Positions 2,848-17,587 of a stretch of DNA of 32,200 nucleotides are shown piece after piece; the first letter of the stretch is position 1; every line of letters begins with the position of its first letter. The DNA is taken from the NCBI GenBank assembly GCA_947382875.1, contig CANDBG010000032.1, forward strand, positions 1 through 32,200, written 5' to 3'. The position numbers and the translations under genes were made by a program. Origin of the DNA: an uncultured Oscillibacter sp. (GTDB lineage Bacteria; Bacillota; Clostridia; Oscillospirales; Oscillospiraceae). A model generated the notes under the pieces. It was given only the letters and a program-made list of their open reading frames with translations, did no database searches and was not told the origin of the DNA.

Positions 2848-3591
2848 CTATGCCTCCCGGTTCCTGGAAAGCGCTATCACAGATTCTAACACAAATTCCG
2901 AAAAATGACGGCTTTTTGGACAAATTTGTATGTTTTTCTTCCCAGGAAGACCGGGTATTCCTGGGTAGGGAATGAAGGCCGTTTCTGCGCGGCATAACAT
3001 GGGTATGTCCAGGGTACTGTCCCCGGCCGCCGCTTCTGGAAGTGAATAACGCGTCAGAGCGGTCCCTTTGTCCAGGCCCGGCGGGAACAGGTACAGCTTC
3101 CGGCCGGACGCCTCTACTGTTAAATTTGTCCGGGTGCGGTATGCCGCCGCGCTGATTGTCGGGTCGTCCTCACAGACTGCAAACAAATACAAGCCGTCCA
3201 CCTGCTTCCAGCGCAGACACCAAGGTTCTTTTGACAGCTCGTCGGAAAGACGATCTATCTCTGCTTGGTGCGGTTCTGCCAGCGCCTGCGATTCCTGGAG
3301 CCATCCTGCATCTGGCTTCCCGTTTTGCAGCAGGATTCCGCCGTTTGTCGTAATCGCCTGAGCTGGTTCGACTGGAAGGTGAATCCGTTGGTACTGTTCT
3401 ATGGAACGGGTTGTCACCGGCAGGAATTCTACAGCGGACGCCGCTTCTTGCAGCAGTTCCCACGCCCGGGGCGTCATAAAGCTCTGTTCGCGGCCCTCGT
3501 ACCACTCGACGCAAATGTCACCAGGCTGACGGTGTTTGTGGGAAAAAATCAGCGTGTTGTCCAGGTCGCTCGCAAATAACAGCCGCTTCAT
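2848..3591 (-). CDS. HAD-family phosphatase of the Ter-associated metabolite module
   Basis: A 247-residue HAD hydrolase with all four motifs: SDLDNTL (residues 8-14), T60 in LPVTTRS, K175 in LDKGTA and GDSTLD (190-195), with a type IIB (Cof-like) cap between motifs two and three. It should remove phosphate from a small molecule in the cytosol. It is the last gene of the island: its ATG at 3591 is ten bases past the stop of the StiP/PELOTA gene, with GGGGGAAGC immediately upstream. In known Ter loci a HAD protein accompanies the HpcH-like, PRTase/TRSP and StiP/PELOTA genes, so it probably dephosphorylates their product (inference). No convincing terminator follows; transcription may run towards the rpsU promoter region. 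Confidence 0.88.
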   Translation of the reverse strand: MKRLLFASDLDNTLIFSHKHRQPGDICVEWYEGREQSFMTPRAWELLQEAASAVEFLPVTTRSIEQYQRIHLPVEPAQAITTNGGILLQNGKPDAGWLQESQALAEPHQAEIDRLSDELSKEPWCLRWKQVDGLYLFAVCEDDPTISAAAYRTRTNLTVEASGRKLYLFPPGLDKGTALTRYSLPEAAAGDSTLDIPMLCRAETAFIPYPGIPGLPGKKNIQICPKSRHFSEFVLESVIALSRNREA

Positions 3592-3600
3592 GCTTCCCCC

Positions 3601-4650
3601 TCAATTGTCCGCCAGACGTCGGATAAGTCCGCACGCACGGTAGTTTTGCAGCGGATATGTCTCTATGGCTGCGCCTTTTTCCCGCGCCAGCTGGTATAAA
3701 TGACCCAGATGCGCCTCGTCGTTCAGTGAACTTACCAACAGCTTCCACGGAACCCGCCGCAGCAGAACCCGCGTTGCCTCACCAATGCCTGGTTTTACTA
3801 AGTTGATATCCGTAACCTGAAATTTTTGACGTATTTCTTCGGCTTCCTCCAAGCCCGTCCGGCCAGAGCGGCAAGGCTTGAAAACCGTAGGCGTTTGGGG
3901 AAATTGCGCTGACACCGTATCCAAAAATTCATAGGTTAAATCCTGGTTTAACAGTTCCCGGTAAAACGCCGCGCCGTGAAACTCGCCGGGACCTATGAGA
4001 TCCGCTCGATAAAATGTGCGACTCAAGAGTCCGGAAACCGTGGAGTTCAAGCAGGAACTCGCGATTAAAAAATCTTCCTGTGTGCCGCTGACCGCTGCGA
4101 TATGTGCCGGGTCCGACAGCACCGCAAGACCTGGGTCTGTGCCTGGGTAGTTCTTTATCGCATGGTTCAGCTCGCGCTGAATAGCGCCTTTGCCGGTCCA
4201 GCCGTCCACAAACTGAAGCTGTGACGCCGAATGGCGCGATAATATGAAATCCATTGCTGTTCGGTCAATTCCGCGGTCACGTATGATCGAAATGGTATAA
4301 TGCGGTACGTCTGCGCCGTAATAGTGTTGGAAGCAGCGTTTCAGCAAAATACCCGCCGATGTGCCTGCCCGCGCCAGCGATACCAGTACGACTTCCGGAC
4401 CCTTGCGGGACCAAATCTGCGCCGCTGCGGATGCGGCAGCTTGGGCCGTCAGGCCGGCGCAGCGCGACAGAGCGTCCTGGTAGGCGTTCAGATAGGCCGG
4501 AGATGGTTCGTACTCCAACGGCAGCATCTCTGAATAGTGTGTTCCCTGTTGGATGCGTGTTTCCCGTTCCTGTGTGCCTAACGGTTCTACCAGACCTGTG
4601 ATGTCTTTCAGAAGAATCGTTACATCCTCTTTTCGATATGTGCTGAACAT
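3601..4650 (-). CDS. StiP/PRTase-like protein with C-terminal PELOTA RNA-binding domain (Ter module)
   Basis: A 349-residue cytosolic protein of the Ter-linked family usually labelled cysteine protease StiP. Residues about 1-255 form the main domain and about 260-349 the PELOTA-type domain, a fold related to L7Ae that binds structured RNA (INLVKPGIGEATRVLL, 282-297; LVSSLNDEAHLGHLYQLA, 305-322). In the main domain VVLVSLARAGTSAG (87-100), SIIRDRGID (121-129) and FVDGWTGKGAI (147-157) resemble the successive loops of a phosphoribosyltransferase, the last like a PRPP loop. A conserved-looking block SSCLNSTVSGLLSR (198-211) holds C200. ATG at 4650 overlaps the upstream stop by one base (TGATG) with AGGAGG nine bases before it. 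Family membership is secure; chemistry is open. Confidence 0.85.
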   Translation of the reverse strand: MFSTYRKEDVTILLKDITGLVEPLGTQERETRIQQGTHYSEMLPLEYEPSPAYLNAYQDALSRCAGLTAQAAASAAAQIWSRKGPEVVLVSLARAGTSAGILLKRCFQHYYGADVPHYTISIIRDRGIDRTAMDFILSRHSASQLQFVDGWTGKGAIQRELNHAIKNYPGTDPGLAVLSDPAHIAAVSGTQEDFLIASSCLNSTVSGLLSRTFYRADLIGPGEFHGAAFYRELLNQDLTYEFLDTVSAQFPQTPTVFKPCRSGRTGLEEAEEIRQKFQVTDINLVKPGIGEATRVLLRRVPWKLLVSSLNDEAHLGHLYQLAREKGAAIETYPLQNYRACGLIRRLADN

Positions 4651-5771
4651 CAAAGGCCCCCTCCTATGAAATACAATTTACATTCGCCGTCAATGCAGGC
4701 GTTCAGCGCCCGGGACACGGTGTTCAGACCGGTTTCGTTGCTTCCGTCGGAAACAATAAGCGCTGCATCATAGTTTTCCAGATTATAAAGAAAGGTTTTG
4801 CGGCTTTCGTTATAGAGGCTTTTGAGACGAAAACCTTTTTGAATCGGATACCCCTCCTGTCCGGAAATGCCGATAGGACTCCGAGTTGTAGCGTGACAGC
4901 GAACATGAGAAAACCCGCCTGTTTGTTCCAATTCTGCCCCTAAAATTAATGCCGGAAACATACATTCCTCCGTTCCCAGAACCAGAATTTTTCCGGATGG
5001 GTCCAGCTCTTTGCGGAAACGGGTGAGCAGTTCCCCGGCTTTGCGGCGGCAGGCGTCCAGGTAATCGTAAGCCAAAACGCCAAGGCGTGGATTGTAAAGA
5101 CTGGTGGGAATATACTTCCATTCCAGCGGTGAGGACTCCGGTTCTGCTGCCTCTGCAACACAAAAACGCGATGCCATGGCCGTATAATCCTCATCCGGCA
5201 ATTTCACCAGATACCGGCTGGTAATTCCGATGGACGCGAAACGAGCTTCGTTTTCCGGCGTCAGACGGTTCAGAATGGACGCCGCTACCAGCTTCTTTTC
5301 CCGCAGAGCCGGGAATCTCGCCGCCAGCTGCTCTATTATGTTAATAAGCGTTTTTCCGGTGGAGAGTTCGTCGTCGATGAAAATAACCGTTTCCGTCCAC
5401 TTCAGCCAGCTTTCCATTTCCTGGCAGTATAAAGCCTGCTCTACGGCATGGCTGTGCTCCTCCTGGAACAAAACCGCAGTCCCTTCCGGAAGCGGTTCCC
5501 GGGTGGTGTGAATGTAAACGCAGTCAGGACCAAAACAGGCCGCCGCCATCGCGCCAATCGCCGTTGCCGTTTCCGCAAAGCCAATGATTAAACCGGTTTC
5601 CGGGAATTCCTCCGACAAACGACGCCCCAGTTCCCACATCATTTCCAGTGAAGCCCGCGGACGAACTGGCAGATGTTTTCCCTGCAAAGGGTTCACCAGC
5701 AAATAGTTCCGCTTCGGATTGCTTACGCGCCGGGCTAAACGCAAGGTGTTCGCTGCCGTGTATTCCGTCAT
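4650..5771 (-). CDS. Phosphoribosyltransferase with C-terminal TRSP domain (Ter module)
   Basis: A 373-residue cytosolic enzyme. Residues about 20-215 are a type I phosphoribosyltransferase domain (PRTase_2 family) with LIIGFAETATAIG (61-73) and the PRPP-binding loop VIFIDDELSTGKT (129-141). Residues about 220-373 form the TRSP domain, named for the motif seen here as TTRSPI (295-300), followed by GxxIQKGFRLKSLYN. The family is known almost only from Ter loci and is predicted to join ribose-5-phosphate to an unknown base or acid. The ATG at 5771 is chosen because it follows the upstream stop by 17 bases with AGGGGA before it; a longer in-frame reading would run back into the HpcH-like gene and adds residues of no known similarity. 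Confidence 0.9.
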   Translation of the reverse strand: MTEYTAANTLRLARRVSNPKRNYLLVNPLQGKHLPVRPRASLEMMWELGRRLSEEFPETGLIIGFAETATAIGAMAAACFGPDCVYIHTTREPLPEGTAVLFQEEHSHAVEQALYCQEMESWLKWTETVIFIDDELSTGKTLINIIEQLAARFPALREKKLVAASILNRLTPENEARFASIGITSRYLVKLPDEDYTAMASRFCVAEAAEPESSPLEWKYIPTSLYNPRLGVLAYDYLDACRRKAGELLTRFRKELDPSGKILVLGTEECMFPALILGAELEQTGGFSHVRCHATTRSPIGISGQEGYPIQKGFRLKSLYNESRKTFLYNLENYDAALIVSDGSNETGLNTVSRALNACIDGECKLYFIGGGL

Positions 5772-5788
5772 AAACCTGGAATCCCCTT

Positions 5789-6760
5789 TCACTCCGGCTT
5801 TACGCCGTAAATGGCCGCCAGCTTGCTGATGCGTCCGGCCCACTTGCTATGGCATTTTATTTCGTTCATTCGTCTGCCGCCCGCGGTTCGTGCGACGCCG
5901 TAATCTCCGGCGTTCCAGCCTAAAAGCTGTTGCGCGTCCTCATAGTCTTCTCGGCTGACCTGCAAGCCTTCGTAAATTACCGGCAGCTGAGACGGATGTA
6001 CCGCCGTCTTGCCGGTAAAGCCGTTGAGACGGTCCAGCGCCAGCTCCGCACGCAGTCCGTCGGCCCAGGCCCCAGACGGGTCCTCGCCAAAGTATTCCCA
6101 AACCGGACCCGATACCACGTAGTCCGCCGAAAATACACGCAGTATGTCTACCAGAATGTCACGCACAACCCCAACCTCATAAATGTTCTGTTCAACGGAG
6201 CGCCGCAGACCATAAACATTACAAAAGTCATTTCCGCCAACCCGAACGTTCAATACCCATTTCTTTACACCGTTCAGAACTTCCTTGATTCGAAGCAGCA
6301 CGCTGTCCCGACCGCCGGGAAGCGCAATCATCCGGCTCTCTAATGTTGGCATGATGTACAGCGGCGCAGAACGGCCCGCGTTGTATTTCTCAATCATTCC
6401 TGCGTATTCGCTGCAGTTTGCTAAGTCGAATTTCGGCAGGACATAGCCCGTCAGCAGATTTTCCAACGCCCCAAGCTGACTGTGTACCCGCTCCATGTGC
6501 CGGGGATTTCGTATCCGTACAAACAACAGCGGACGCTCCGGCACAGCCGTAAGCGTCTCCAATGTCCGCAGCAGCGTCTGCTCTGCCTGCGGCAGCGCTG
6601 CATCTTGTATGGAATCTTCCAGACAAAATGCGACCGAAGTCAGATGCCTGTACGCCTTTTTCTGAATCTTCCGCGCTATTCCTGTGTTCAGCGCGGGCGT
6701 GTACAACAACCCGCCTACCTGATACGGAAGCAGTTCCTCTGCCGTCCACATCGTTTTCAC
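5789..6760 (-). CDS. HpcH/HpaI-CitE-like TIM-barrel C-C lyase (Ter module)
   Basis: A 323-residue protein of the citrate lyase beta/HpcH superfamily, the Ter-linked subfamily. Visible are FCLEDSI (45-51) with the acidic pair, the arginine motif FVRIRNPRH (80-88), IMPTLES (about 135-141) supplying the metal-binding glutamate, VGGNDFC (about 173-179) and GKTAVHPSQLPVI near residue 260, the standard C-terminal strand of CitE relatives. Such enzymes make or break C-C bonds of CoA-thioesters or keto acids with Mg2+. In this cluster it presumably supplies the acceptor for the phosphoribosyltransferase (inference). Start is GTG at 6760, with GGAG seven bases upstream; the ATG three codons later is too far from it. 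It begins four bases after the TerD-fusion stop. Confidence 0.88.
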   Translation of the reverse strand: MKTMWTAEELLPYQVGGLLYTPALNTGIARKIQKKAYRHLTSVAFCLEDSIQDAALPQAEQTLLRTLETLTAVPERPLLFVRIRNPRHMERVHSQLGALENLLTGYVLPKFDLANCSEYAGMIEKYNAGRSAPLYIMPTLESRMIALPGGRDSVLLRIKEVLNGVKKWVLNVRVGGNDFCNVYGLRRSVEQNIYEVGVVRDILVDILRVFSADYVVSGPVWEYFGEDPSGAWADGLRAELALDRLNGFTGKTAVHPSQLPVIYEGLQVSREDYEDAQQLLGWNAGDYGVARTAGGRRMNEIKCHSKWAGRISKLAAIYGVKPE

Positions 6761-6764
6761 TCCG

Positions 6765-7973
6765 TCACTCCACTTCCACCCCGTAGCTCTCGCACAGCCG
6801 ACGCAGGCCGTCCCGATAGCCAGAGGCTACAAAATTTACCTTCCATTGGCCCTTGTGCCGGTAGATTTCCACCGCTACCAATGTCCGTTCAATACTTAAA
6901 TGCTCCAGCTTCATCCGGCAAAGCTCCCGCTGTCCCGCAAATAAACGCAATAATGGTTCCTGTACCTGGGAAAAATTTTTGCTCGGTTCTTCGCCGTAGA
7001 TCGAATAACAGACTGCAATGCGCTCCACGGAGGGCTCTACCTCCGAAAGAGACGCCAGCGCCAAGGGCTGAAGTCCGCCTGTTCCCAGACGAACCGCATG
7101 GTCCCGGGACTCCGGGTTTCCGAAAAACACGAAGTCTGCGTCACCCCGCACTTTTCCGTTTTTTTGCAGCAGAAACAAATAGCTGTCCAGTTCCATAGGC
7201 ACCCGGGTGCCCTGATACTCCAGCGCTACCTTTAATATGCCCTGTTCCAGTTCTGGAAAACCCGTCCGCTGGCCGCGGGCCATGTACGGAATACTTGCGT
7301 CCGGCGCCGCCGGAGGAAGCGCTTCCATCGGAACAACCGGCGGATTTACCTCCTGGCCTCCAGGGGCCGGCGCCAGGTCGCCGCGGCGTACCGGTGCGCC
7401 TGTCCGCGCTTGCCCGGTTACACAAATATGTCGGATGACCCGGCTCTTTACCAGAATTTCTCCATACAAAACCGTATGGTCCCGCAGAGCTTCCATTTTC
7501 AGGGAAACCGTATGGCGTCCCGCCGGCAGCCGCGCCGGTGAAATGGACATACCATGAATCGTGCATTCCAGCTCCACTGGACCAGCCAATGAAAGTACCA
7601 CCGAAAACATATTCTCTGTTCCGGCGGCGAATTCCCCTAACGCGATCAGCAAAGGCAGGTTCCAGTGGGACGGCTCGCCGGGAATGTTCTCCACATCGCC
7701 ATTTACTGTTACCCCTTCCAGCGTTACCCCGCGGGTTTCCGCACGTATGGCCGTCCGGTTGGACGCCCCTGGCTCTGTGACCTCGACCCGCAGATTTTTC
7801 AGCGTCACACCCGAGGACGCCACCCGGAAAACCGGGCCATGCGCTGCCCATACCGTCGCTCCGCTGCCGTCAATCTCACAGGGCCGCGTTACCTGAACCG
7901 GTCCTTCGTATTCGCCGGGCGTCAGGCGCAGCCGGCCCCCGCATTCGTCCAGCTGCCGCTGTAATGCGTTCAT
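6765..7973 (-). CDS. Beta-helix domain fused to a degenerate TerD domain
   Basis: A 402-residue protein. Residues about 1-110 have short repeating strands typical of a right-handed parallel beta-helix (LRLTPGEYEGPVQV, CEIDGSGATVW, GVTLKNLRVEV, GVTLEGVTVNGDV). Residues about 120-190 look like a beta-sandwich, a proline/alanine-rich linker follows (about 195-230), and from about 240 to the end is a TerD domain (RVPMELDSYLFLLQKNGKV, then GDADFVFFGNPES, ending LRRLCESYGVEVE). The acidic glycine loop that binds Ca2+ in TerD (GDNLTGxGxGDDE) is absent; GTGGLQPLALASL stands there. No signal peptide. Start ATG 7973 has GGAGG nine bases upstream; an ATG at 8000 has none. The beta-helix may bind a ligand or surface while TerD pairs with its paralogues; this is inference. 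Confidence 0.82.
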   Translation of the reverse strand: MNALQRQLDECGGRLRLTPGEYEGPVQVTRPCEIDGSGATVWAAHGPVFRVASSGVTLKNLRVEVTEPGASNRTAIRAETRGVTLEGVTVNGDVENIPGEPSHWNLPLLIALGEFAAGTENMFSVVLSLAGPVELECTIHGMSISPARLPAGRHTVSLKMEALRDHTVLYGEILVKSRVIRHICVTGQARTGAPVRRGDLAPAPGGQEVNPPVVPMEALPPAAPDASIPYMARGQRTGFPELEQGILKVALEYQGTRVPMELDSYLFLLQKNGKVRGDADFVFFGNPESRDHAVRLGTGGLQPLALASLSEVEPSVERIAVCYSIYGEEPSKNFSQVQEPLLRLFAGQRELCRMKLEHLSIERTLVAVEIYRHKGQWKVNFVASGYRDGLRRLCESYGVEVE

Positions 7974-8008
7974 CTTCCCCCGCCTCCATCCGTCATCCAT
8001 GCAGGAAC

Positions 8009-8040
8009 GGGCGCGGGGATGTTTTGTCTCCCCCGCGCCC
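8009..8040. repeat. Strong GC-rich hairpin between terD and the TerD fusion gene
   Basis: GGGCGCGGGG (8009-8018) and its exact complement (8031-8040) form a 10-bp all-GC stem with a 12-base loop. No T-tract follows on either strand, so it is more likely an mRNA-stabilising or processing structure that sets the ratio of TerD to downstream products than a full terminator. Confidence 0.55.
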
Positions 8041-8063
8041 TGCCTGCGCTGTTGTTGTTTGAT

Positions 8064-8648
8064 TTACACGTTTACGCCGTAGCTCTTGCACAGCGCTTCC
8101 AGGCCGCCCTGGTAGCCCGCGCCGACGGCATTGAACTTCCAGTCCGCGCCGTTGCGGTAAATCTCACAGACCACCAGCGCCGTTTCAATGGAGAATTCTT
8201 CCATCAGGTCAAATTTCAGAACTTCCGTGCCAACCATGTCCTCGGGACCTGCCATCCGGGCCACGCGTACATAGGCATTCGACACCTGTCCGAAATTCTG
8301 ACGGCGGGCCTGCGCTTCGTGAATCGTTACCGTGATGGCAATTTTCTGCACGTCCGCAGGAACCTTGGTGAAGTCAATAATCAATACTTCGTCGTCGCCG
8401 TCGCCCTCGCCGGTGAGGTTGTCGCCTGTGTGACGGATGGAACCATCCACGCTTTCCAGATTGTTATAGAAAATGAAGTCCTCGTCACAGCGAACCTTGC
8501 CGTTCGCGCCCAGTACAAACGCACAGGCGTCCAGGTCGAAATCCGCGCCGCCGTCGTACTGGTTCACGTCCCAGCCCAAGCCAACCAGAGCCATGGTCAT
8601 CGTCTTGTCCAGACTGACGCGCTGGCCTTTTGCTAAATTCACTGCCAT
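8064..8648 (-). CDS. terD: TerD-family Ca2+-binding stress protein
   Basis: A 194-residue TerD protein of canonical length. Both family signatures are intact: FDLDACAFVLG (around residue 40) and [15 protein letters not shown] (around 75-90), the acidic loop that binds Ca2+, then [14 protein letters not shown] and a C-terminal GGLEALCKSYGVNV. TerD proteins are cytosolic beta-sandwich proteins linked to tellurite, phage and envelope stress, probably Ca2+-dependent scaffolds at the membrane. The start is ATG 8648 (MAVNLAKGQ) with GGGAGGAAA upstream; a longer in-frame reading to 8798 enters the preceding gene. Closest paralogue in the window is the TerD at 10728-11306, with which it shares its ends. 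Confidence 0.95.
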   Translation of the reverse strand: MAVNLAKGQRVSLDKTMTMALVGLGWDVNQYDGGADFDLDACAFVLGANGKVRCDEDFIFYNNLESVDGSIRHTGDNLTGEGDGDDEVLIIDFTKVPADVQKIAITVTIHEAQARRQNFGQVSNAYVRVARMAGPEDMVGTEVLKFDLMEEFSIETALVVCEIYRNGADWKFNAVGAGYQGGLEALCKSYGVNV

Positions 8649-8697
8649 TTTGAATTTCCTCCCTGTTTCAAAATTTCTCGGAAGACAGCCGGACCCC

Positions 8698-9288
8698 TTA
8701 ACGGAACCGGTTCGCCAGCTCACTGACGCTGTTATCCCGGGTCGCCTGCCCAACCGCGTTGAATTTCCACTGCCCCTTGTACAGATACAACTCGCCAAAT
8801 ACCATTGCCGTCATGCCTTCGTAGTTCTCTGACAGGTTGTATTTGCAAAGTTCCTGATTTGTCTCGCCGTCGCAAATGCGGATGAACGCATTCTTAATCA
8901 GTCCAAAATGCTGCTTCCGCTGGGTCGCCTGATAAATGTTGACCACAAAAACGATCTTGTCAAACTGACCCGGCAGCGCCGACAGGTCTACCAGAATCTG
9001 CTCGTCATCTCCTTCACCCGCGCCAGTGAGATTGTCTCCCATGTGTACCACCGCGCCGCTGCTGTGCCGGAGATTGCCGAAATATACCACGTCGTTGTTT
9101 CCCGCCAGTTTTCCCGCCGTACACACAAACGCAGAGGCGTCACAGTCGATATCCTGCTTCCTGGGGGCGAAAAAACCGCCCTTTTGCTCTGCTTCGTCCC
9201 AGCCTAAGCCGACCATCACTCGACGCAGCGTTCCGCCGTCGTTCTTGCGAAGATCGACCTTCTGGCCCTTCTGGAGATTGACCGACAT
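8698..9288 (-). CDS. TerD-family protein, second paralogue type
   Basis: A 196-residue TerD-superfamily protein beginning MSVNLQKGQKVDLRKND. It keeps IDCDASAFVC and the acidic Ca2+ loop [15 protein letters not shown], then RKQHFGLIKNAFIRI. It differs from its neighbours in an inserted KGGFFAPRKQDI segment after the first strands and an ending without YGVNV, a pattern also seen in the TerZ/TerE-like branch and partly in the TerA-like gene here (KKRGFFSPKPKAIDL). ATG 9288 has GGGAGA at seven bases. It sits 31 bases after AIM24 and 49 bases before the next terD start. Family certain; the exact branch name is not. Confidence 0.92.
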   Translation of the reverse strand: MSVNLQKGQKVDLRKNDGGTLRRVMVGLGWDEAEQKGGFFAPRKQDIDCDASAFVCTAGKLAGNNDVVYFGNLRHSSGAVVHMGDNLTGAGEGDDEQILVDLSALPGQFDKIVFVVNIYQATQRKQHFGLIKNAFIRICDGETNQELCKYNLSENYEGMTAMVFGELYLYKGQWKFNAVGQATRDNSVSELANRFR

Positions 9289-9319
9289 TTGTTATCTCCC
9301 TTCGTGAAAAATCGTTTCC

Positions 9320-10000
9320 TCAACTGCTCGGAATCATGCCCCGAATCCATCCTGCAAAGCTGCCCGGGTTTCGGGTCTGAATCAACACCACGCCCGGTCC
9401 GCGGAACCGGCACACCAGACATTCCCCCGACGCAATGCTGGAAAACCAGCCGCTGGACGCCTTCTCAATTTTATAATTCATATAATCCGGCCAGGCTACC
9501 AAATGGCCGTTGTCTATCACAACTTCTTCATTCGGTTCCAGGTTGATTGCATGAATCGCCCCGTAGCTGCTCAAAAACACGGTGCCGCTTCCATGGACGT
9601 TCAGAACGAAAAAACCTTCCTTCGAGAAAATTCCCTTGGCCAGATTTTGAACGGCGGTGTCAATCTCCACGCTCTCCTCCGCCGCCAGAAAGCCACCCTT
9701 CTGAACCATCATGCCATAGGAACCGTCCAGCTTTACGTCGACGATTCCACCCGGAATCGGATGACCAAGCAGAGCGTAGCCCGGACCGCGGGAGGCCGTC
9801 AGACGCTGGAAGAAAAAGCTCTCGCCTGTGAACATCTTCCGGGCAAGACCGCCCAGAAGCCCACGCTCCATGCTGCCGGTTACATCCACCGTCGCAGACA
9901 TCGCTACCATGGCGTCCGATTCCGCTTTTACCGTCTCCCCTTTGTTCAGATTTACCTGCACAACTGGAAAGGCATCCTGATATAAAATTTTGTAATCCAT
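9320..10000 (-). CDS. AIM24 family protein
   Basis: A 226-residue all-beta protein of the AIM24 family (TIGR00266 type). Typical features are the early GETVKAESDAMVAMSATVDV, the glycine-rich run LLGGLARKMFTGESFFFQRL (about 48-67), FLAAEESVEIDT, and the GSGTVFLSSYGAIHAI strand near residue 145. No signal peptide or membrane segment. Bacterial AIM24 proteins often occur beside TerD genes; their biochemical role is unknown, and the yeast namesake acts in mitochondrial membrane organisation. ATG 10000 follows the TerA-like stop (10002-10004) by a single base, so translation is likely coupled, with only a weak AAGTAAG site before it. Confidence 0.9.
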   Translation of the reverse strand: MDYKILYQDAFPVVQVNLNKGETVKAESDAMVAMSATVDVTGSMERGLLGGLARKMFTGESFFFQRLTASRGPGYALLGHPIPGGIVDVKLDGSYGMMVQKGGFLAAEESVEIDTAVQNLAKGIFSKEGFFVLNVHGSGTVFLSSYGAIHAINLEPNEEVVIDNGHLVAWPDYMNYKIEKASSGWFSSIASGECLVCRFRGPGVVLIQTRNPGSFAGWIRGMIPSS

Positions 10001-10001
10001 C

Positions 10002-10592
10002 TTACTTGGACCCCGCTACCCAGCGCAGTCCCCAGCCAAAGGCCGCGTCCATGTCCGGATGGCTCTTGAAAAACCGAACCACCTTCTCTACGCTGAACGT
10101 TTCATTGTTCTGGTTCTCCAACAGCGCAATCGCACACATTCCCAGCTTGGAACCATATTCGTCCATACGAACCACAATGTCCTCGCTGCCGGGACACTTT
10201 ACCGTAACCACGCCGTCGGCCTGCTGCCAGTTCGCGACGCCCTCATAAATGAACGTATAAACCAAAATGCGCCGGATAGCTGCAATCTGTCCGCCGTTTA
10301 CACGCAGATTCTCGCCGCCTTCGGCCTCGCCGGTGCGGTCGTCTCCGTCCAGAGCGATGAACGGAGGCTGCTGGAGACTGCCAAAAGCATTCCCTAACGC
10401 CTGGACACAGCCTTTCGCGCCGTTGGTCAGCTCAAAGAGACAGCCCAGGTCCAGGTCAATTGCCTTGGGCTTCGGAGAGAAAAATCCGCGCTTCTTGGGT
10501 TGGCTCCAGTTCAGGTTGATCAGAATTTCTCCCAGGTCCGGACCCTTCTTCTGTAAACTTACCTTTTGCCCCTTTTTCAGTTCGACAGCCAT
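10002..10592 (-). CDS. TerA-like member of the TerD superfamily
   Basis: A 196-residue protein starting MAVELKKGQKVSLQKKG, a standard TerD-type N-terminus. It then diverges: KKRGFFSPKPKAIDLDLGCLFE and a modified acidic loop IALDGDDRTGEAEGGENL (around 78-95) in place of GDNLTGxGxGDDE, and it ends in a longer tail (VEKVVRFFKSHPDMDAAFGWG). This pattern matches TerA-like proteins, which are thought to associate with TerD partners. The loop keeps several acidic residues, so Ca2+ binding is possible but altered. ATG 10592 has AGGAGGAAATAAAA directly upstream, almost the same leader as the terD at 11306. Confidence 0.85.
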   Translation of the reverse strand: MAVELKKGQKVSLQKKGPDLGEILINLNWSQPKKRGFFSPKPKAIDLDLGCLFELTNGAKGCVQALGNAFGSLQQPPFIALDGDDRTGEAEGGENLRVNGGQIAAIRRILVYTFIYEGVANWQQADGVVTVKCPGSEDIVVRMDEYGSKLGMCAIALLENQNNETFSVEKVVRFFKSHPDMDAAFGWGLRWVAGSK

Positions 10593-10660
10593 TTTTATTT
10601 CCTCCTGTTTATGTCTTTTCCTCCAGCAAGACCAAAGCCTCGCCTGTGAAAGCTCTTTTG

Positions 10661-10722
10661 CTTACTTTTCTCTCGAGAAAAGTAAGTCCTTTTTCGGTTC
10701 CTTTTTCTGACAGAAAAAGGAA
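10661..10722. repeat. Two tandem near-perfect hairpins between terD and the TerA-like gene
   Basis: First palindrome: CTTACTTTTCTC (10661-10672) and its complement (10675-10686), two bases between. Second: TTCCTTTTTCTG (10698-10709) and its complement (10711-10722), one base between. The second lies five bases after the terD stop. Neither is followed by a normal T-tract on the minus strand, so partial termination or 3'-end protection of the terD mRNA is more likely than full termination. Confidence 0.6.
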
Positions 10723-10727
10723 TAACC

Positions 10728-11306
10728 TCACACGTTTACACCATAGTTCAGACAGAGCGCGTGCAGGCCGCCCTGGAAGCCGCTGCCAATCGCGTTGAAC
10801 TTCCATTCGCCGTTGTTGCGGTAAAGCTCGCCAACGACAACCGCTGTCTCAATGGAGAAATCTTCACCTAAATCGTAGCGGATAAGCTCGGCGCCCGTGG
10901 TCTCGTCAACTACGCGGATGAAGGCGTTAGACACCTGTCCAAAGTTCTGACGGCGCTCCTCCGCTTCGTAAATCGTTACCGTGAAATCAATCTTTTCCAC
11001 GCTCGCCGGAACCGCAGACAGGTCTACCTTGATCTGTTCGTCGTCGCCTTCACCCTCGCCGGTGAGGTTGTCGCCCAAGTGCTCCACACTGCCGGAGGCG
11101 TGCTTCAGATTGCCGTAGAATACGAAGTCCGCGTCGCCGGCCACCTTGCCCGAACCGCCCAGCAGAAACGCTGCGGCGTCCAGGTCAAAGGCAGAACCGC
11201 CGTCGTACTTGTTTACGTCCCAACCCAGGCCGATCAGCAGCTTGCTCAAACCGGGATTGCCTTTCGTCAGATCTACCTTCTGACCCTTTGTCAAACTGAC
11301 TGCCAT
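10728..11306 (-). CDS. terD: TerD-family Ca2+-binding stress protein
   Basis: A 192-residue canonical Ter[36 protein letters not shown], the intact Ca2+ loop [30 protein letters not shown] and the ending [13 protein letters not shown]. The start is ATG 11306 because AGGAGGAAATAACA lies directly before it; an in-frame ATG eight codons further upstream has no ribosome site. It follows the Ca2+ ATPase gene by 42 bases and is the first Ter structural gene after it, with a double hairpin downstream that could make it the best expressed of the group (inference). Confidence 0.96.
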
Positions 11307-11348
11307 TGTTATTTCCTCCTGAATTTTCATTTTATTCCAAACCGGTGA

Positions 11349-14003
11349 TTATCCGTTGTTCTTCATCACCAGCTTGCGCACCAAGTCTACCGGGATAATC
11401 GTAAACGCCATTACCAATACAAATACCCATTCGCTTGCCGTCAGACCATAGCACCGAAGAATTACGCCGCCCATATACGTCATGATAACCTGTACCACCA
11501 CAATCAGACCCATTACACGGAGAAATCCGGGGTTGCCGCCCAGGTTGTCAAACAGGTTCAGCTTGTCCGTGCGGGCGTTAAAGGCGTTGAATACCGCAAT
11601 GAATATGAAGAAGGCAAAATAGCCGGTCAGAAGATAAGCGTCCTGGCCTGCCTCGGCGGGGCGGAAGAACGTATGCGCAAAGGGCGTGAGAATAAACACC
11701 ATGCTTAATGCGAAGGTCCAGCCTGCGCCAATCAAAATCGAACTCCACATATTGCGGCTGACAATGTGTTCGTCGCGGCGCTTGGGTTTTTCCTCCATGT
11801 AACGCTGAAGCGCCGGTTCGCCGCCAAAGGCCAGGGCCGCCAGGGTGTCCATCACCAGATTTACCCACAAAATCTGTGTGATCGTCAGAGGATTTTCAAT
11901 GTGCAGCAGCGGGCACACAAACGATACCAATACCGCTGCTACGTTGATCGTCAGCTGGAATACAATGAATTTGCGGATGCTGTTGAAAATGGTGCGGCCG
12001 TACAGAATCGCTTTTTCAATCGAATTGAAATTGTCGTCCAGAATGACAATCTCACTGGCTTCCTTGGCAACTTCCGTGCCTCCGCCCATAGCAAAGCCTA
12101 CATCCGCCCGCTTGAGCGCCGGAGAGTCGTTTACGCCGTCGCCGGTCATGCCGACCACTAAGTTCAGTTCCTGCGCTACGCGCACAAAACGGCTCTTGTC
12201 ACTCGGCAGCGCACGCGCTACAACGCGAATCGACGCTAATTTCTTCTTCAATTCTTCGTCGCTTAACTGCGCCAGCTCGTCGGAGGTCATTACCAAATCC
12301 GAGGCGTTTTTCAGCAGCCCCGCTTCTTTTGCAATCGCCATGGCCGTGTCTTTCCGGTCGCCCGTGATCATAACCACCTGTACGCCCGCCCGCTGTACCT
12401 GCGCAATCGCTTCCACCGATTCCGGACGCACTTCATCCCGGATGCCAATAACGCCTACCAGCGTCCATTCGCCCTCGGGGAGCGCGTTATCTTCAAAATT
12501 CCGGTCGCTGACCGCCAGCGCCAAAACGCGAATCGCACGGCCCGCCAGCTCGTCAATCTTGGCCTCTACGTCCGAACCGCCGCTCTGGAAGGGTTTGCGG
12601 GTTCCGTCAATGTCGTAGTAGCAACTGCACTTGCTCAGAATTTTTTCCGGCGCGCCCTTGATCAGTGACAGGCTGTAATCGCCTTCTACACGGGCCGCGG
12701 AATACTTATTCTGACTGTTGAAGGGAATGCTTCCCGTTACCTCTACATTTGCTGCTGCGTCAGCAGCGGCAAAGCTCAAAATCGCCCGTTCGGTGGCGTT
12801 GCCGCCTACGGCGCGGGCGGAGACCCCTTCGCCGGTGATTACAGCGCTGGTGTTGTACCGTACGCCCAGAGACAACAGCCGTCCAAGCTCGCCGGGAACT
12901 TCTGCACGGGTCTTGTAGGCCCGGCCTTCGCCGTCTACAAACGCTACGGCCTCCAGCTGGCCCTTCGTGATGGTGCCGGTCTTGTCGCTGAACAGAATGT
13001 TCAGGCTTCCGGCGGTCTCAATGCCGGAGACCTTGCGTACCAAAACGTTATCTTTCAGCATTTTTCCCATGTTCTGCGCGGACACAATCGCAATCATTAA
13101 AGGCAGACCCTCGGGAACCGCCATGACAATGATGATGACCGCCAGCATGACCGCTTCTACGAGGTCATTCAGCAGAGGCATCCAGCCATGCAGGTTTATG
13201 AGGAGTTCAAATTGGGGAAAGAAGGAGATATCGACAATACGCTGGAACATGAAAGCCACTGCAATCGCTACGCCGCCGATATAGCCGAATTTGCTGATTT
13301 GTCCCGCCAAGTGGCCCAGTTTCAGCTTTAACGGCGTGTCGCGGTCGTCGCCGGCCTGCAGCTCGCTTGCGATCTGACCATAAACCGATTTGTCGCCGAC
13401 CGTGGTCACTTCCATGACTGCGTTGCCGGAGCAGACCACAGAGCCGCGAAACACCTTATACGGATTCAGAAAGTCCATGGAGGTTTCCGTTTCCTGGTAA
13501 TCCTTCGGCATAACGATCTTGGCGGCCTCTTTCGCCTCGCCATTCAGAACCGACTGATCTACCTGAATCGTTCCTTCTGCAAGTATGCCGTCGGCGGGCA
13601 CCTTGTCGCCGGATTGCAGCAGAACCCAGTCGCCTGCCACGATATCCTGAATCGCAATTTCCGTCAGCTCGTTGTTTCGGTAGACCTTGCACTTGATTTG
13701 AGACGCTTCCTCCTGGAGCTTCTGGAAAGCGTTCTCATTCTTGTACTCGGAAAAGGTGGAAACAAACGTTGCCAGCAACACCGCCAGGGCGATACCGACC
13801 GATTCGTACCACTCCGTTTGCCCCAGGAACGCAAACACCACATTGATGATCAGCGCCACACAGAGAATTTTGATCATCGGGTCCCCAAAATTCCCCCGCA
13901 GTTTTTCCCAAAAACTTTCGGTGGCCTGTTCGGTCAGATGGTTGTCGCCGTGCTGTTCCCGCGACGTGCGGACTTGCTCGTCTGTCAAACCGCGTGTACT
14001 CAT
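11349..14003 (-). CDS. Ca2+-transporting P-type ATPase, PMCA-like (P2B type)
   Basis: An 884-residue integral membrane cation pump. In order: N-terminal cation-ATPase domain (1-60), actuator domain (about 100-215), VPEGLP in M4 (296-301), phosphorylation site DKTGT (340-344), nucleotide-binding domain, MITGD, the hinge TGDGVNDSPALKRADVG, and six C-terminal membrane segments with NLVMDTLAALA in M6. The M4 glutamate and M6 Asn/Asp match Ca2+ site II of plasma-membrane type pumps; no CPC or heavy-metal domain is present, so this is not a Cu/Cd pump. The actuator loop reads LNGEAK in place of TGES, keeping only Gly-Glu. ATG 14003 has AGGAAG upstream. It replaces TerC as the membrane member of the island. 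A CsoR-like palindrome precedes it. Confidence 0.92.
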   Translation of the reverse strand: MSTRGLTDEQVRTSREQHGDNHLTEQATESFWEKLRGNFGDPMIKILCVALIINVVFAFLGQTEWYESVGIALAVLLATFVSTFSEYKNENAFQKLQEEASQIKCKVYRNNELTEIAIQDIVAGDWVLLQSGDKVPADGILAEGTIQVDQSVLNGEAKEAAKIVMPKDYQETETSMDFLNPYKVFRGSVVCSGNAVMEVTTVGDKSVYGQIASELQAGDDRDTPLKLKLGHLAGQISKFGYIGGVAIAVAFMFQRIVDISFFPQFELLINLHGWMPLLNDLVEAVMLAVIIIVMAVPEGLPLMIAIVSAQNMGKMLKDNVLVRKVSGIETAGSLNILFSDKTGTITKGQLEAVAFVDGEGRAYKTRAEVPGELGRLLSLGVRYNTSAVITGEGVSARAVGGNATERAILSFAAADAAANVEVTGSIPFNSQNKYSAARVEGDYSLSLIKGAPEKILSKCSCYYDIDGTRKPFQSGGSDVEAKIDELAGRAIRVLALAVSDRNFEDNALPEGEWTLVGVIGIRDEVRPESVEAIAQVQRAGVQVVMITGDRKDTAMAIAKEAGLLKNASDLVMTSDELAQLSDEELKKKLASIRVVARALPSDKSRFVRVAQELNLVVGMTGDGVNDSPALKRADVGFAMGGGTEVAKEASEIVILDDNFNSIEKAILYGRTIFNSIRKFIVFQLTINVAAVLVSFVCPLLHIENPLTITQILWVNLVMDTLAALAFGGEPALQRYMEEKPKRRDEHIVSRNMWSSILIGAGWTFALSMVFILTPFAHTFFRPAEAGQDAYLLTGYFAFFIFIAVFNAFNARTDKLNLFDNLGGNPGFLRVMGLIVVVQVIMTYMGGVILRCYGLTASEWVFVLVMAFTIIPVDLVRKLVMKNNG

Positions 14004-14052
14004 TCCGCTTTTCTTCCTTTCGTTTTCCTTCGTAAAGGGATATCAATTCATA

Positions 14053-14069
14053 TTACCCCGTAGGGGTAA
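14053..14069. promoter_or_regulatory. CsoR-like palindrome upstream of the P-type ATPase
   Basis: TTACCCC (14053-14059), GTA, GGGGTAA (14063-14069): a perfect 7+3+7 palindrome in the 137-base gap between the kinase stop and the ATPase start, 50 bases before that start. As remembered, operators of the CsoR/CstR family have the form TACCC-n-GGGTA around a short centre. No clean -35/-10 pair is seen around it, and a terminator reading is disfavoured because no T-tract follows. Confidence 0.5.
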
Positions 14070-14140
14070 AAGAAATATGAACAAATTATGAACCTTCTAT
14101 GGCGAATCGTTAAATTCTTCAATTTTTTCCAAAAACGCCG

Positions 14141-15619
14141 TCACCGCCCGCAAGAAACTTTGACCAAATAGCCGCCTTCCCCGCCGGAAACCCGGAACAG
14201 CGTCCCGTCTTGCAGCCAGACCGCTTTTCCCGCCGGTACGACAGCCCCGCCGGGAGTGGTCATTCCGTGGATTCTCTGGTTTACCAGAAGCCATTGGCCG
14301 CCTTGCCGGTAAATGTATGCCTGCATGGAGGCATCTGTCTTTTCGTCCGGGAATGTGTTGGCTTGTATGTGCCACCTGAACAGCGGCATTTTGTGGAAAA
14401 CATCCACTTCCCCCGCCGGTACCCATTGCCCACGGCGGCCCCGGACCGGACTTTTCAGGTGCAGCCGGACGATGTTTTCCCGCTTTACCGGCGTTCCGCA
14501 GAACGGGCACACCGGATGCTTTACGTCGTGCAGAACAAACCATTTCGCGGCGCAGTCAGGGTTCTCGCACGGATGCAGCAGGTCCCAGGTCTTAATTAAA
14601 CCCTTCTCCCACTCCATCGCCGCCGGACGGCGCTCCGGACAGTGCAGACCGTCCACAAAGGCGCGGAGAAACAGGTCCTCCAAATACGGTCCCATGTCGT
14701 GGATCGTCAGGGGGAGGTCCGGCGGACGGTTGCTGGTGTCGCGGGGATCCTCAATGAACGTCGCGCGGGGACCGAAGGCAAGATAGTCGTCCTCCTCCGG
14801 CGAATTGGCAGAGTAGATTTTGGGACCCTCCAGCGGGTGCCGCATCAACAGATATTCATACAACAGCACCGCCAGCGCGTGCAGGTCTGTATAAGCGCAG
14901 GGAGACTTTCGGTCGGGACTGTCCGCAGGAAGGTCCAATGTTTCCAGAACCTCCGGCGCAATGTAACCGTGGGTTCCCACCACCTCCGGAGGAAACAGGC
15001 CCGGTACGACCAATGAGTCAATGTCAATTACCACGCAGCGTCCGGAACGCGGGTCAATCAATACGTTGTTACAGCTTAAATCTGAATGGGCAAGCCCTGC
15101 CTGGTGCATCCGCCGGACGGAACGCGCCAGTGACATTGACAGTTCCAGCATTGCCCGAAAATCGCCTACTTCGTCCGGTTCCAGGTACTGCCGGTTCCGC
15201 ATGGATGTGAACCATTTGCTTCGTTTGTCCCGGCCCTTCAGCGGCAGCACGACGGAGGCTTCTTCCGTAAAGAAAAAATTCTCCGGGTACGCCGGACACA
15301 CAATCCCGAATTCCGGCGACTGCACCGTCGCCACCGGCCAGCAGAACCGGTCCGCAAAATATGCCGCCATCGCCGGACTGTTGCCGGGTGCGCCGCCCTC
15401 GGACTCCGGACGCGTGGGATTGTATTTCCCGATAATCGCTTCCAGACGCTTGTGCGTGTCCGGGTCGGCGGCAATCATGGGATTGTTGAAAAATTGGACG
15501 ACATAAGACTTGTCTGGAGCGAAATAGGTGTATTTCATGCCGCCCCTGGGAGGATTGTCCTGAATCACATAGGGCAGCTTCCGGCCGTCCGACAACACCG
15601 CTTCCACTGTGACCGGCAT
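14141..15619 (-). CDS. Ser/Thr protein kinase-like protein with zinc ribbon (TerY-P triad kinase)
   Basis: A 492-residue cytosolic protein. Residues about 1-340 form a divergent protein kinase domain: a glycine-type loop near PPRGGMKY (23-30), catalytic loop HSDLSCNNVLID (178-189), DID (199-201) in place of DFG, and GYIAPE (218-223). The usual VAIK lysine position appears to be Gln (YVVQFF, 39-44). A four-cysteine zinc ribbon follows (C351, C356, C371, C374), then a beta-rich C-terminal domain (about 390-492) of unknown type. ATG 15619 lies three bases after the PP2C stop with GAGGGG upstream. With the adjoining PP2C and TerY it forms the TerY-P triad, predicted to signal by reversible phosphorylation; targets are unknown. 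Confidence 0.88.
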   Translation of the reverse strand: MPVTVEAVLSDGRKLPYVIQDNPPRGGMKYTYFAPDKSYVVQFFNNPMIAADPDTHKRLEAIIGKYNPTRPESEGGAPGNSPAMAAYFADRFCWPVATVQSPEFGIVCPAYPENFFFTEEASVVLPLKGRDKRSKWFTSMRNRQYLEPDEVGDFRAMLELSMSLARSVRRMHQAGLAHSDLSCNNVLIDPRSGRCVVIDIDSLVVPGLFPPEVVGTHGYIAPEVLETLDLPADSPDRKSPCAYTDLHALAVLLYEYLLMRHPLEGPKIYSANSPEEDDYLAFGPRATFIEDPRDTSNRPPDLPLTIHDMGPYLEDLFLRAFVDGLHCPERRPAAMEWEKGLIKTWDLLHPCENPDCAAKWFVLHDVKHPVCPFCGTPVKRENIVRLHLKSPVRGRRGQWVPAGEVDVFHKMPLFRWHIQANTFPDEKTDASMQAYIYRQGGQWLLVNQRIHGMTTPGGAVVPAGKAVWLQDGTLFRVSGGEGGYLVKVSCGR

Positions 15620-15622
15620 TTC

Positions 15623-16828
15623 TTACCCCTCCTTGATCATAATGACGGTTAACGTCCGGTCGTCGAACGAACCGCGCTCTACATAGTTATCCAGCCAGCG
15701 CAGAAGACGCGCTTCCGGCGTATCCAATGCCAGTTGCCCCGGCAGGTCCTGACGGGCCCGACGCAGAATTTCACGCGCATTCCACAGGTCTTTCAGCGTT
15801 CCTCCCGTATGCTCCAGAATCCGACGGGCATAATGCAGAGGCACCAACACCGTCTGGTCGTTGACCCAGGGGTAGCTGAGAGGTTCCGGCAGGGTTTTGG
15901 CCCCTTCCCCGGCGTGCCCGGACGCTTCCGTTAAAACCCCGTTTGCCGTCAGGTCGCAGTACAGACGGCACAGCTCCGTTTCATACGGGAAATAGTCGTC
16001 TGCCACGCCGTCGGTCATCAACAGAAGCCGGTCCGAATGACCGCGGGAGATTTTTGTACGGCGCTGTAAGGCGTCCAGGGACTTCATGCGCGGAGAGGTG
16101 AGAAATTCCGTCTCACCGGAAAAAATGCCGCTGTCCGCTGAGCCCAGCAGCTTTACCGCCGTTTCAAACGGGGCCTTCGTGTCCAGAAGGGCAATCATGC
16201 CGTCGCCAATTTGACAGGCGGCCGTCAGGGTTCCCTCCGGCCCTGCGGGAATGACGGCCGTTACCAGCAGCGTTGCAGAAAAGTCCTCCAGTTCCAGTGG
16301 ACGGCCCAATGCCGCTTCATAGGCCGAAACCTCTGAACGGCTGCGAAACGCCGCCTCTACCGCCTCCTGCGCCGCCCGCACGGACTGCTGTACTGTCTCC
16401 GCCATAACCCGAAACGCCTCTTTGCATTGCGGGTCGTCAAAGGACCGGGCGATGTGGCCGGAAAGCTCCGGACGCTCCTTCCAAAGCGTCTCAAAGGCTT
16501 GCGACAAAAACGCCACTGCCGCGCGGCAGGACTCCCGTGCGCCAATACGGGAAAATTTCCGGGACCCCGCGCCGTCGGAAACCGCGGCAAAGAGCAGATT
16601 CCCGGCGGCGGCCTCCGCGTACCAGTCGTCACTGTTTTGGCCCTCATGTTTGTGCTTTTTTCCGCGTACCTGCGCGGCCAGTATCGTTCCACCTGGGTGC
16701 TCCCGGCAGCTGGATCGGTATTCCGGAAACGGCTCCGGTTCGTCCAGCGGAACGGGGTGATACTTCCACAGCCGCGCCGTGTGTTTGGTAACGGCCCCGT
16801 CTTCCAGGGGCGCGGGACGGGCCGTCAT
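15623..16828 (-). CDS. PP2C-family Ser/Thr phosphatase (TerY-P triad)
   Basis: A 401-residue cytosolic metal-dependent phosphatase. Motifs: GQNSDDW (63-69), VSDGAGS (83-89), CQIGDGMI (205-212), LMTDGVADDY (270-279) and FDDRTLTVI near the C-terminus; the aspartates that hold two Mn2+/Mg2+ ions are present. An inserted helical region (about 110-180) separates the first and second motif blocks, as in other TerY-linked phosphatases. ATG 16828 is chosen because it overlaps the terY stop as ATGA, a translational-coupling arrangement; a longer in-frame reading to 16930 would overlap terY by 100 bases with no ribosome site. It probably reverses the phosphorylation laid down by the downstream kinase. 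Confidence 0.92.
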   Translation of the reverse strand: MTARPAPLEDGAVTKHTARLWKYHPVPLDEPEPFPEYRSSCREHPGGTILAAQVRGKKHKHEGQNSDDWYAEAAAGNLLFAAVSDGAGSRKFSRIGARESCRAAVAFLSQAFETLWKERPELSGHIARSFDDPQCKEAFRVMAETVQQSVRAAQEAVEAAFRSRSEVSAYEAALGRPLELEDFSATLLVTAVIPAGPEGTLTAACQIGDGMIALLDTKAPFETAVKLLGSADSGIFSGETEFLTSPRMKSLDALQRRTKISRGHSDRLLLMTDGVADDYFPYETELCRLYCDLTANGVLTEASGHAGEGAKTLPEPLSYPWVNDQTVLVPLHYARRILEHTGGTLKDLWNAREILRRARQDLPGQLALDTPEARLLRWLDNYVERGSFDDRTLTVIMIKEG

Positions 16829-17472
16829 GGCACTACGACAAAGCCGTCGGGGGGCGGCGGAAGCTGGACCGGACCGCCTGGCTTTGCGTCCATACCCTTG
16901 GAGGACATTCGGATGGAACCGGATACCCATGCGAAAAAGCGCGCCAGGTCTCCGGCGGACAGGGTGTTCATCATTAACACGTTATCTGTAATCTGTTTCA
17001 GACAGGCTGTATCCGCTTTGGCGCCCGCCGCACACGCCACGATGTTGGCCGCTTTCATCTCCCGGATCGCACGGGACGCCTTGCCAAAGGTCTCCACGTC
17101 GGTAGGCGAGCCGTCGGTCAGGAGAAACACCAAGGGGCGCCAGTCCCCTTTCTGGGTCTCCGTACACTGCCGTACCTCCCGCTCCACGCACTCCATCAGC
17201 ACGTTCAGCGCACCGCCCAGGGCCGTCGCGCCGCCCGCATTTACCTGCGGTTCCTGAAACTGCATCAGCTCCGTCAAGGGCATGACCTGCCGTGCGGAAC
17301 TGTCAAAGGTAATTACAGAGAGATATGCCGTTTCCAATGCCTGGGGGTCCCCCTTCAGCTCGGAAAGCAGCGCTTTCACGCCCTGGCGGACCGCTTCAAT
17401 CGGTTCCCCCATCATGGACCCGGAACAGTCCAGCAGCAAATAAACCGGCAGTCTGCGGGTGTAATCTGCCAT
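16825..17472 (-). CDS. terY: TerY-type von Willebrand A domain protein
   Basis: A 215-residue single vWA domain. The metal-ion-dependent adhesion site is complete: DCSGSM (15-20), a threonine in GGATALGG (80-87) and LLTDGSPTD (117-125). The C-terminus is a short proline-rich tail (VQLPPPPDGFVVVP). vWA proteins of this type act as protein-protein switches in the cytosol and pair with the kinase and phosphatase encoded directly after. The ATG at 17472 has AAGGAGA ten bases upstream. A longer in-frame start at 17568 lies upstream of the promoter's -10 box and cannot be used from it. It is the first gene of the island. Confidence 0.93.
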   Translation of the reverse strand: MADYTRRLPVYLLLDCSGSMMGEPIEAVRQGVKALLSELKGDPQALETAYLSVITFDSSARQVMPLTELMQFQEPQVNAGGATALGGALNVLMECVEREVRQCTETQKGDWRPLVFLLTDGSPTDVETFGKASRAIREMKAANIVACAAGAKADTACLKQITDNVLMMNTLSAGDLARFFAWVSGSIRMSSKGMDAKPGGPVQLPPPPDGFVVVP

Positions 17473-17558
17473 ATTGACCCATCTCCTTTTTTCGTTCGGA
17501 CACCGTTTGGCATCTGCGGGAAAACGCCGGATTTCCCCAGCATATGTATCGTACGCCA

Positions 17559-17587
17559 ATTCTAGCACGTTTTCCTGCTTTTGACAA
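17559..17587 (-). promoter_or_regulatory. Promoter of the Ter island (upstream of terY)
   Basis: On the minus strand TTGTCA (17582-17587) is followed after exactly 17 bases by TAGAAT (17559-17564); each box matches 5 of 6. The leader to the terY ATG is about 80 bases. This is the only good sigma-A-type promoter found for the island. Confidence 0.75.

Follow-up and report, generated by a model that had tools for sequence, protein, structure and literature searches.

Which protein serves as the membrane component when a Ter gene cluster has no TerC? The question is raised by a stretch of 32,200 nucleotides (hereafter the window) from an uncultured Oscillibacter sp., translation of which revealed 14 minus-strand open reading frames (ORFs) forming an island at 2848-17472. 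The island combines genes for TerD-type proteins with a gene for a PMCA-type (P2B) Ca2+-ATPase. We found a pump of this type in the membrane slot where other TerD clusters have TerC or, in one genome, an exchanger-family protein, and the island is probably a calcium-pump variant of the Ter stress-response system, with transport, binding and output all predicted.

A preliminary description of the locus had listed 14 genes on one strand with short gaps or overlaps, apart from 137 bases before the ATPase gene and 135 bases after the first terD, and the ORFs bore this out. With the chosen starts, intergenic distances lay between -55 and +49 bases except at three junctions, namely the two just given and a gap of 99 bases before the TerA-like gene. 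The Ter families it had named were likewise recovered: vWA, PP2C, kinase, P-type ATPase, five TerD domains, AIM24, C-C bond lyase, PRTase_2/TRSP and StiP/PELOTA all scored above the Pfam cut-off. The last gene gave no Pfam match and its HAD-IIB matches all fell below cut-off, its assignment to HAD being based on DxDxT and GDSxxD motifs. Beginning at the terY end, the genes are:

16825-17472, minus strand: TerY-type vWA protein (PF00092; 215 amino acids (aa); DxSxS motif; start set by four relatives)
15623-16930, minus strand: PP2C phosphatase (PF13672, E=1.2e-32; start uncertain, the longest ORF overlapping terY; length varies among relatives)
14141-15619, minus strand: Ser/Thr kinase (PF00069; HxDLxxxN and DID motifs)
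11349-14003, minus strand: PMCA-type (P2B) Ca2+-ATPase (TIGR01517, 612 bits vs a cut-off of 507; DKTGT, PEGLP, NLVMDT)
10728-11306, minus strand: TerD1, canonical TerD (PF02342; all ten Ca2+-site positions)
10002-10592, minus strand: TerDx, a standalone TerA C-terminal domain (PF02342; 52.6% identity over 194 aa to residues 212-402 of Pseudomonas nitroreducens TerA)
9320-10000, minus strand: AIM24 family protein (PF01987, E=2e-70)
8698-9288, minus strand: TerD2, canonical TerD (PF02342; Ca2+-site positions kept except L41, which is C)
8064-8648, minus strand: TerD3, canonical TerD (PF02342; all ten Ca2+-site positions)
6765-7964, minus strand: TerA-like fusion of an N-terminal region and a degenerate C-terminal TerD domain (PF02342, ORF residues 241-406)
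5789-6760, minus strand: HpcH/CitE-like C-C bond lyase (PF15617, E=4.5e-94)
4650-5843, minus strand: PRTase_2 and TRSP (PF15609, PF12500; phosphoribosyl pyrophosphate motif FIDDELSTGKT)
3601-4653, minus strand: StiP and PELOTA (PF11202, PF15608)
2848-3591, minus strand: HAD phosphatase (DxDxT, GDSxxD; HAD-IIB match below cut-off)

The vWA, PP2C and kinase genes are adjacent and retain their catalytic motifs, forming the arrangement called the TerY-P triad. Together, the five PF02342 domains and the metabolite arm of lyase, PRTase/TRSP and StiP/PELOTA identify the island as a Ter system in the broad sense. It differs from the classical terZABCDE operon in lacking TerC. Both TerC and the dedicated ATP-grasp enzyme of the Ter metabolite pathway, reported missing from the island in the preliminary description, had no match in the locus, and terC elsewhere in the genome, which the same description had named as possible counter-evidence, was not found either (no TerC match; genome 87.5% complete). 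The one ATP-grasp match in the genome was a 1,356-aa frame, taken by its size only for carbamoyl-phosphate synthase; the same model matched 56 of 60 genomes and 13 of 14 controls. Pfam detected no TerB among the 14 genes, the genome beyond the island not having been searched. A Pseudomonas TerB query (single-sequence phmmer) matched only its own locus and that of genome G224 in a set of loci that left out the window itself.

The pump is 884 aa long and passed the cut-off of the PMCA-type model TIGR01517 and of no other equivalog, in addition to that of a general P-type subfamily model. The motifs DKTGT, PEGLP, NLVMDT and GDGVND were present in the pumps of all five islands of this kind found in the genus. 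When seven Ter-linked or viral pumps were scored, divergent ones included, six passed the PMCA-type cut-off and the seventh, from locus L207, reached 503 vs 507.

To place the pump in context, we considered every TerD carrier among 60 relatives and 391 genomes of the class, 26 genomes in all. A pump homologue lay in the TerD cluster of 20 of these, window included, and TerC in one. Among the 25 carriers other than the window, 19 had pump homologues, 33-93% identical, at most two genes away from a member of the TerD family; in G338 and G058 that neighbour was a large TerD-domain gene, not a canonical TerD. TerC was detected in two of the 26, inside the TerD cluster of G224, where there is no pump, and on a different contig in G356, and gave no match in any of the 37 genus genomes. 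The absence of TerC, which the preliminary description had treated as a special feature of the island, is the norm among the TerD clusters of the class. Its proposal that a PMCA-like ATPase takes the membrane role fared better, since the pump stands in TerC's place in this survey and in those of named and viral loci below.

A third occupant of the slot was seen in G393, where a Na+/Ca2+-exchanger-family gene lies between TerD genes (L036:14395-15408) in a cluster without pump or TerC. Its product scored above the Pfam cut-off (Na_Ca_ex) and at 179.2 vs 179.65 against a calcium/sodium antiporter model. BLAST with this exchanger found no second one beside TerD. A 430-aa polytopic protein of G202, considered as an alternative calcium transporter, was set aside, as by eye it resembles a purine permease.

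Similar results were obtained with named loci, which were the 80 top-ranking of at least 584 matches confirmed in the lyase scan and are biased towards kin. TerD was present in 55, and in these a pump was the same-strand neighbour in 38, TerC in 2, neither in 15 and both in none. Counting within 3 kb gave pump 39, TerC 2, neither 14 and both 0, and the 25 loci with 3 kb on both sides gave pump 19, TerC 2 and neither 4. Among the 15 loci with neither, L113 has a pump beside a TerA-type gene, L169 a pump cut by the contig edge and L137 a pump further off.

The slot is filled in the same alternative manner on viral contigs, for each of which a true phage nature is putative. The 32 viral loci, several of them near copies, comprised 14 with a pump-TerD run (L200, L202-L205, L207, L208, L210, L211, L213, L214, L223, L224 and L230), 11 with TerC, 7 with neither and none with both. 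The non-overlap of pump and TerC gave a value of 0.00025, which treats related loci as independent and is indicative only. In both viral loci tested, L207 and L210, the TerD genes are followed by a gene for a PspA/IM30-like protein (below the Pfam cut-off). Genes close to the L207 cassette encode a Sak-like annealing protein and HNH endonucleases, and one close to the L210 cassette encodes an integrase; the tested flanking proteins of L200, L202 and L208 had PHROGs matches of metabolic or unknown kind. Searching a phage collection with the pump returned 133 records, all below 60% identity, and 17 of the 20 listed were without annotation.

A tree of 79 ATPase sequences (quick search, one support value, long-branch warnings) contained a main clade of 56, made up of 42 Ter-linked pumps, 13 viral ones and the unlinked pump of G014, so that 55 of 56 were Ter-linked or viral. 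The Ter label required five changes vs 25.8 in shuffles. Outside the clade, Ter-linked pumps were found in G334, just outside, and in G357 and G429, which pair beside the unlinked pumps of G099 and G202. The tree is compatible with more than one recruitment of the pump; its branches are long, and gains and losses are indistinguishable on it.

The island itself is a single conserved unit. The order of its 14 genes is identical in five of the 37 genus genomes, the window's own (G000) and G001, G020, G030 and G033, at 51-96% identity to the window across the other four. Chance neighbourhood is ruled out because the same order recurs in those four genomes, and the check for conserved order proposed in the preliminary description therefore came out in its favour: the parts are not independent neighbours. 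TerD matches occurred in ten of the 37 genomes; in G018 and G023 the pump, TerDs, lyase and YceG-TelA are arranged differently, and G009 and G019 have a short run of pump-TerD-TerD-AIM24-TerA. Similar, non-identical runs occur in other Bacillota, among them L095, L101, L092, L091, L116, L099 and L107.

The island is not the whole system, which corrects the picture in the preliminary description. The genome carries a YceG-TelA pair outside the island, on contig C31 (G000:C31, L086, 7575-10812), and YceG and TelA likewise lie at separate loci in G020, G030 and G033; no YceG match was obtained in G001 (83% complete). Among the 60 genomes, YceG was found in 8 of 12 TerD carriers vs 0 of 48 others (a value of 2e-7, indicative only, with related loci treated as independent). 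Because in many other loci the YceG-TelA pair sits inside the TerD cluster and here it lies elsewhere, the Ter system is split and the island is its larger part.

The earlier count of five TerD-type proteins stands for the PF02342 domains, whereas only three are canonical TerDs; the other two are TerA-type, a standalone C-terminal domain and a TerA-like fusion. Klebsiella TerD binds Ca2+ through two sites, formed by positions 40, 41, 42, 78, 79 and 89 and by positions 29, 82, 84 and 88 (PMC8779313, consulted in part). TerD1, TerD2 and TerD3 keep the residues of both, with Leu41 to Cys in TerD2 as the sole change. TerDx, the sixth gene product, corresponds to the C-terminal half of TerA as a separate gene; it keeps site 1 with Asn79 changed to Asp and loses two of the four positions of site 2. 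In the fusion, six of the ten positions in the C-terminal domain are changed or missing. The fusion also resembles the N-terminal TerD of Pseudomonas TerA (30% over 158 aa), and its N-terminal half is conserved and has a weak NosD-type match.

In a survey of 208 TerD copies (170-300 aa, at least 40% identity to TerD1-3), 166 came from pump loci, and the eight Ca2+-site positions checked were invariant in all 166 except N79 (165 of 166). This retention does not distinguish pump loci, because selection by identity favours conservation and the TerDs of TerC loci (n=7) keep the same residues. A plasmid search with TerD1 returned 2631 records, mostly from enterobacteria and pseudomonads; of two stretches inspected, one had no annotation. 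In Clostridioides difficile, synthesis of two TerD paralogues is accelerated under metronidazole, according to the part of PMC6262375 consulted; this is compatible with a stress role and silent on mechanism.

From the gene content, gene order, motif retention and co-occurrence observed here, we infer every step of a possible mode of action. The vWA/PP2C/kinase triad would read stress, and the lyase, PRTase, StiP and HAD proteins would make a nucleoside-like signal. The TerD, TerA-type and AIM24 proteins would form a Ca2+-dependent layer beneath the membrane, which TelA and YceG would complete and whose Ca2+ loading the pump would set. As its output, the system may protect the membrane when the cell faces phage, toxic oxidants or damage to its envelope. 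A four-part model of Ter systems, comprising signal synthesis, TerD-type sensors, a membrane component and sub-membrane structures, has been proposed (PMC7824862, in the portion consulted), to which the present analysis adds the identity and the exchangeability of the membrane component. The interpretation in the preliminary description is, as a whole, partly supported, with calcium transport and biological output still predictions.

Several points weigh against the calcium-pump reading. Five of the 26 TerD clusters held neither pump nor TerC (G003, at a contig edge, G099, G202, G385 and, with its exchanger, G393); the exchanger case is single and lies half a bit short of the antiporter cut-off; the named loci are biased as stated; G014, which has no TerD, encodes a PMCA-type pump with 48% identity; and both TerA-type proteins have lost part of their Ca2+ sites. 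Moreover, the Bacillus subtilis TerC protein MeeF (formerly YceF) has been linked to Mn2+ export (PMC12096827, consulted in part), and therefore the cation may not be Ca2+.

One alternative is that the island is chiefly anti-phage, the metabolite being an alarm, the membrane layer a block to DNA entry and calcium one trigger. Phage inhibition is lost when classical ter genes carry insertions, and deletion of terC in Klebsiella lowers phage resistance (both from the available part of PMC12054061), the four-part model also speaks for such a role, and so do the viral pump-TerD cassettes, followed by a PspA/IM30-like protein in both cases tested. Against it, a PADLOC scan of ten of the 14 island proteins gave weak kinase and PRTase matches only, and no defence model was assigned. 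We regard this as rather unlikely to be the chief role; it is compatible with the calcium-pump reading, not exclusive of it.

Less probable still, and on balance unlikely, is that the pump, like the TerC proteins of B. subtilis, moves Mn2+ or some other divalent metal out of the cell for the metalation of exported proteins, with Ca2+ binding by TerD incidental. Mn2+ is the main rival ion because the B. subtilis TerC proteins MeeF and MeeY are linked to its export (PMC12096827), and a pump that stands in for TerC may move the same ion. However, the only specific transporter model whose cut-off the pump passes is the PMCA-type Ca2+ one, the pump keeps PEGLP and NLVMDT, and the third slot occupant belongs to the Na+/Ca2+-exchanger family. 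In addition, comparisons of TerC within the LysE superfamily score highest with the Ca2+/H+ antiporters CaCA2 (PMC4608589, in the part consulted), and no Rfam family matched the window at the gathering threshold, hence no known Mn riboswitch. That Ter genes only share an operon with the pump, which would be an ordinary calcium exporter of the cell, is very unlikely: the pump is the sole match at E<=1e-40 in its own genome, G020 and G033, and G014 has its pump without TerD, but pump-TerD adjacency recurs in Oscillospiraceae, Lachnospiraceae, streptococci and viral contigs, and pumps outside the main ATPase clade also adjoin TerD.

The calcium-pump reading can be set beside known systems. With Ter-dependent stress-response systems, as known in part from PMC7824862, the island shares TerD, vWA/PP2C/kinase, lyase, PRTase/TRSP, StiP/PELOTA and HAD; it differs in that a Ca2+-ATPase replaces TerC, TelA/YceG lie at a second locus and no TerB was found in the island. 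The ter locus of Pseudomonas nitroreducens plasmid pPniHBP1_1 (L238) likewise has PRTase, StiP, lyase, HAD, TerD-family and TerA genes in one run, but it includes TerB and TerC, has TerA as a single protein and lacks a pump; its VWA gene is accompanied by no annotated kinase or PP2C in the stretch examined. Bacillus-type TerC loci (L162, Lysinibacillus; L163, Bacillus sp. V3B) share TerD followed by lyase-PRTase-StiP-HAD, whereas TerC lies between TerD and lyase and the locus has no pump. The pump aligns with ACA8 and PMCA1/2 over most of its length and shares DKTGT, PEGLP and the M6 N/D motif; it differs in being 884 aa vs chains of 1054-1274 aa and in an A-domain TGE that reads NGE. Jug huge gut phages have terD genes, one beside a pspA-like gene, plus a calcium P-type ATPase, but there terD and ATPase are separately transcribed regions, with no link drawn in the available part of the report (PMC12363816). 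Among the open-literature matches listed, none linked a TerD gene cluster to a calcium ATPase; such a link may be in the founding Ter paper (Anantharaman et al. 2012), and we do not claim it to be unpublished.

Three candidate regulatory elements were noted in the non-coding sequence:

17559-17587, minus strand: putative sigma-70-type promoter TTGTCA-N17-TAGAAT, upstream of terY
14076-14092, minus strand: 17-base direct repeat TTCATA-N5-TTCATA, candidate operator, in the kinase-ATPase gap
10661-10686, minus strand: inverted repeat (12-bp arms, 2-base centre) in the TerD1-TerDx gap; a similar repeat occurs in G030

The putative promoter accounts for the upper edge at 17587 given in the preliminary description, which does not hold as a gene end, terY reaching to 17472 in line with four relatives. 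Each of the five genus islands has a single copy of the pattern TTGTCA-N17-TANA(A/G)T upstream of TerY, 102-212 bases away, and the pattern appeared in 0-1 of 2000 shuffles per island. The direct repeat, as TTMAYA-N5-TTMAYA, is exact in four of the five islands and has one mismatch in the fifth, the motif having been derived from these same sequences; it is possibly an operator. The other loci tested did not show it at comparable strength upstream of their pumps. A Pho-box was rejected as its identity, with 4 exact genomic matches vs 7 for a reversed-pattern control and none beside phosphate genes (by eye). As a separate observation, one further genomic match adjoins a response-regulator/sensor gene pair, by eye (L233). 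The inverted repeat is possibly a site of mRNA processing or attenuation. Riboswitch control was discarded on the Rfam result for the window; the Rfam matches in six relatives were limited to three tRNAs and a cobalamin riboswitch, the latter lying outside the island.

Outside the island, a serine recombinase gene (Resolvase and Recombinase domains), truncated at the contig end, lies at 2-796, about 2 kb downstream, and a 199-aa cysteine-rich protein with no Pfam match is encoded upstream at 17763-18362. The 12 non-island genes of the window were sought within 26-34 kb around the four other islands. The three genes downstream of the island were found near none of them; upstream, the 199-aa gene recurred in G020 and, a few kb off, in G033, and a cation efflux gene in G020, the upstream flank being scant in G001 (2.4 kb) and in G030, whose contig begins 0.3 kb before TerY.

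A broader view is possible, if doubtful as a whole: the Ter membrane slot may be a Ca2+-exporter slot filled by the unrelated TerC, PMCA-type ATPase and Na+/Ca2+ exchanger. On that view bacteria would protect their membranes with Ter systems that run on calcium, Ca2+ would also be the ion that TerC itself moves at TerD loci, and the cassettes of phages, with pump, three TerDs and a PspA-like protein, would be a minimal form. The repeated replacement of TerC by a predicted calcium transporter beside predicted calcium-binding TerDs, both among bacteria and on viral contigs, suggests that calcium is the ion with which Ter systems work.

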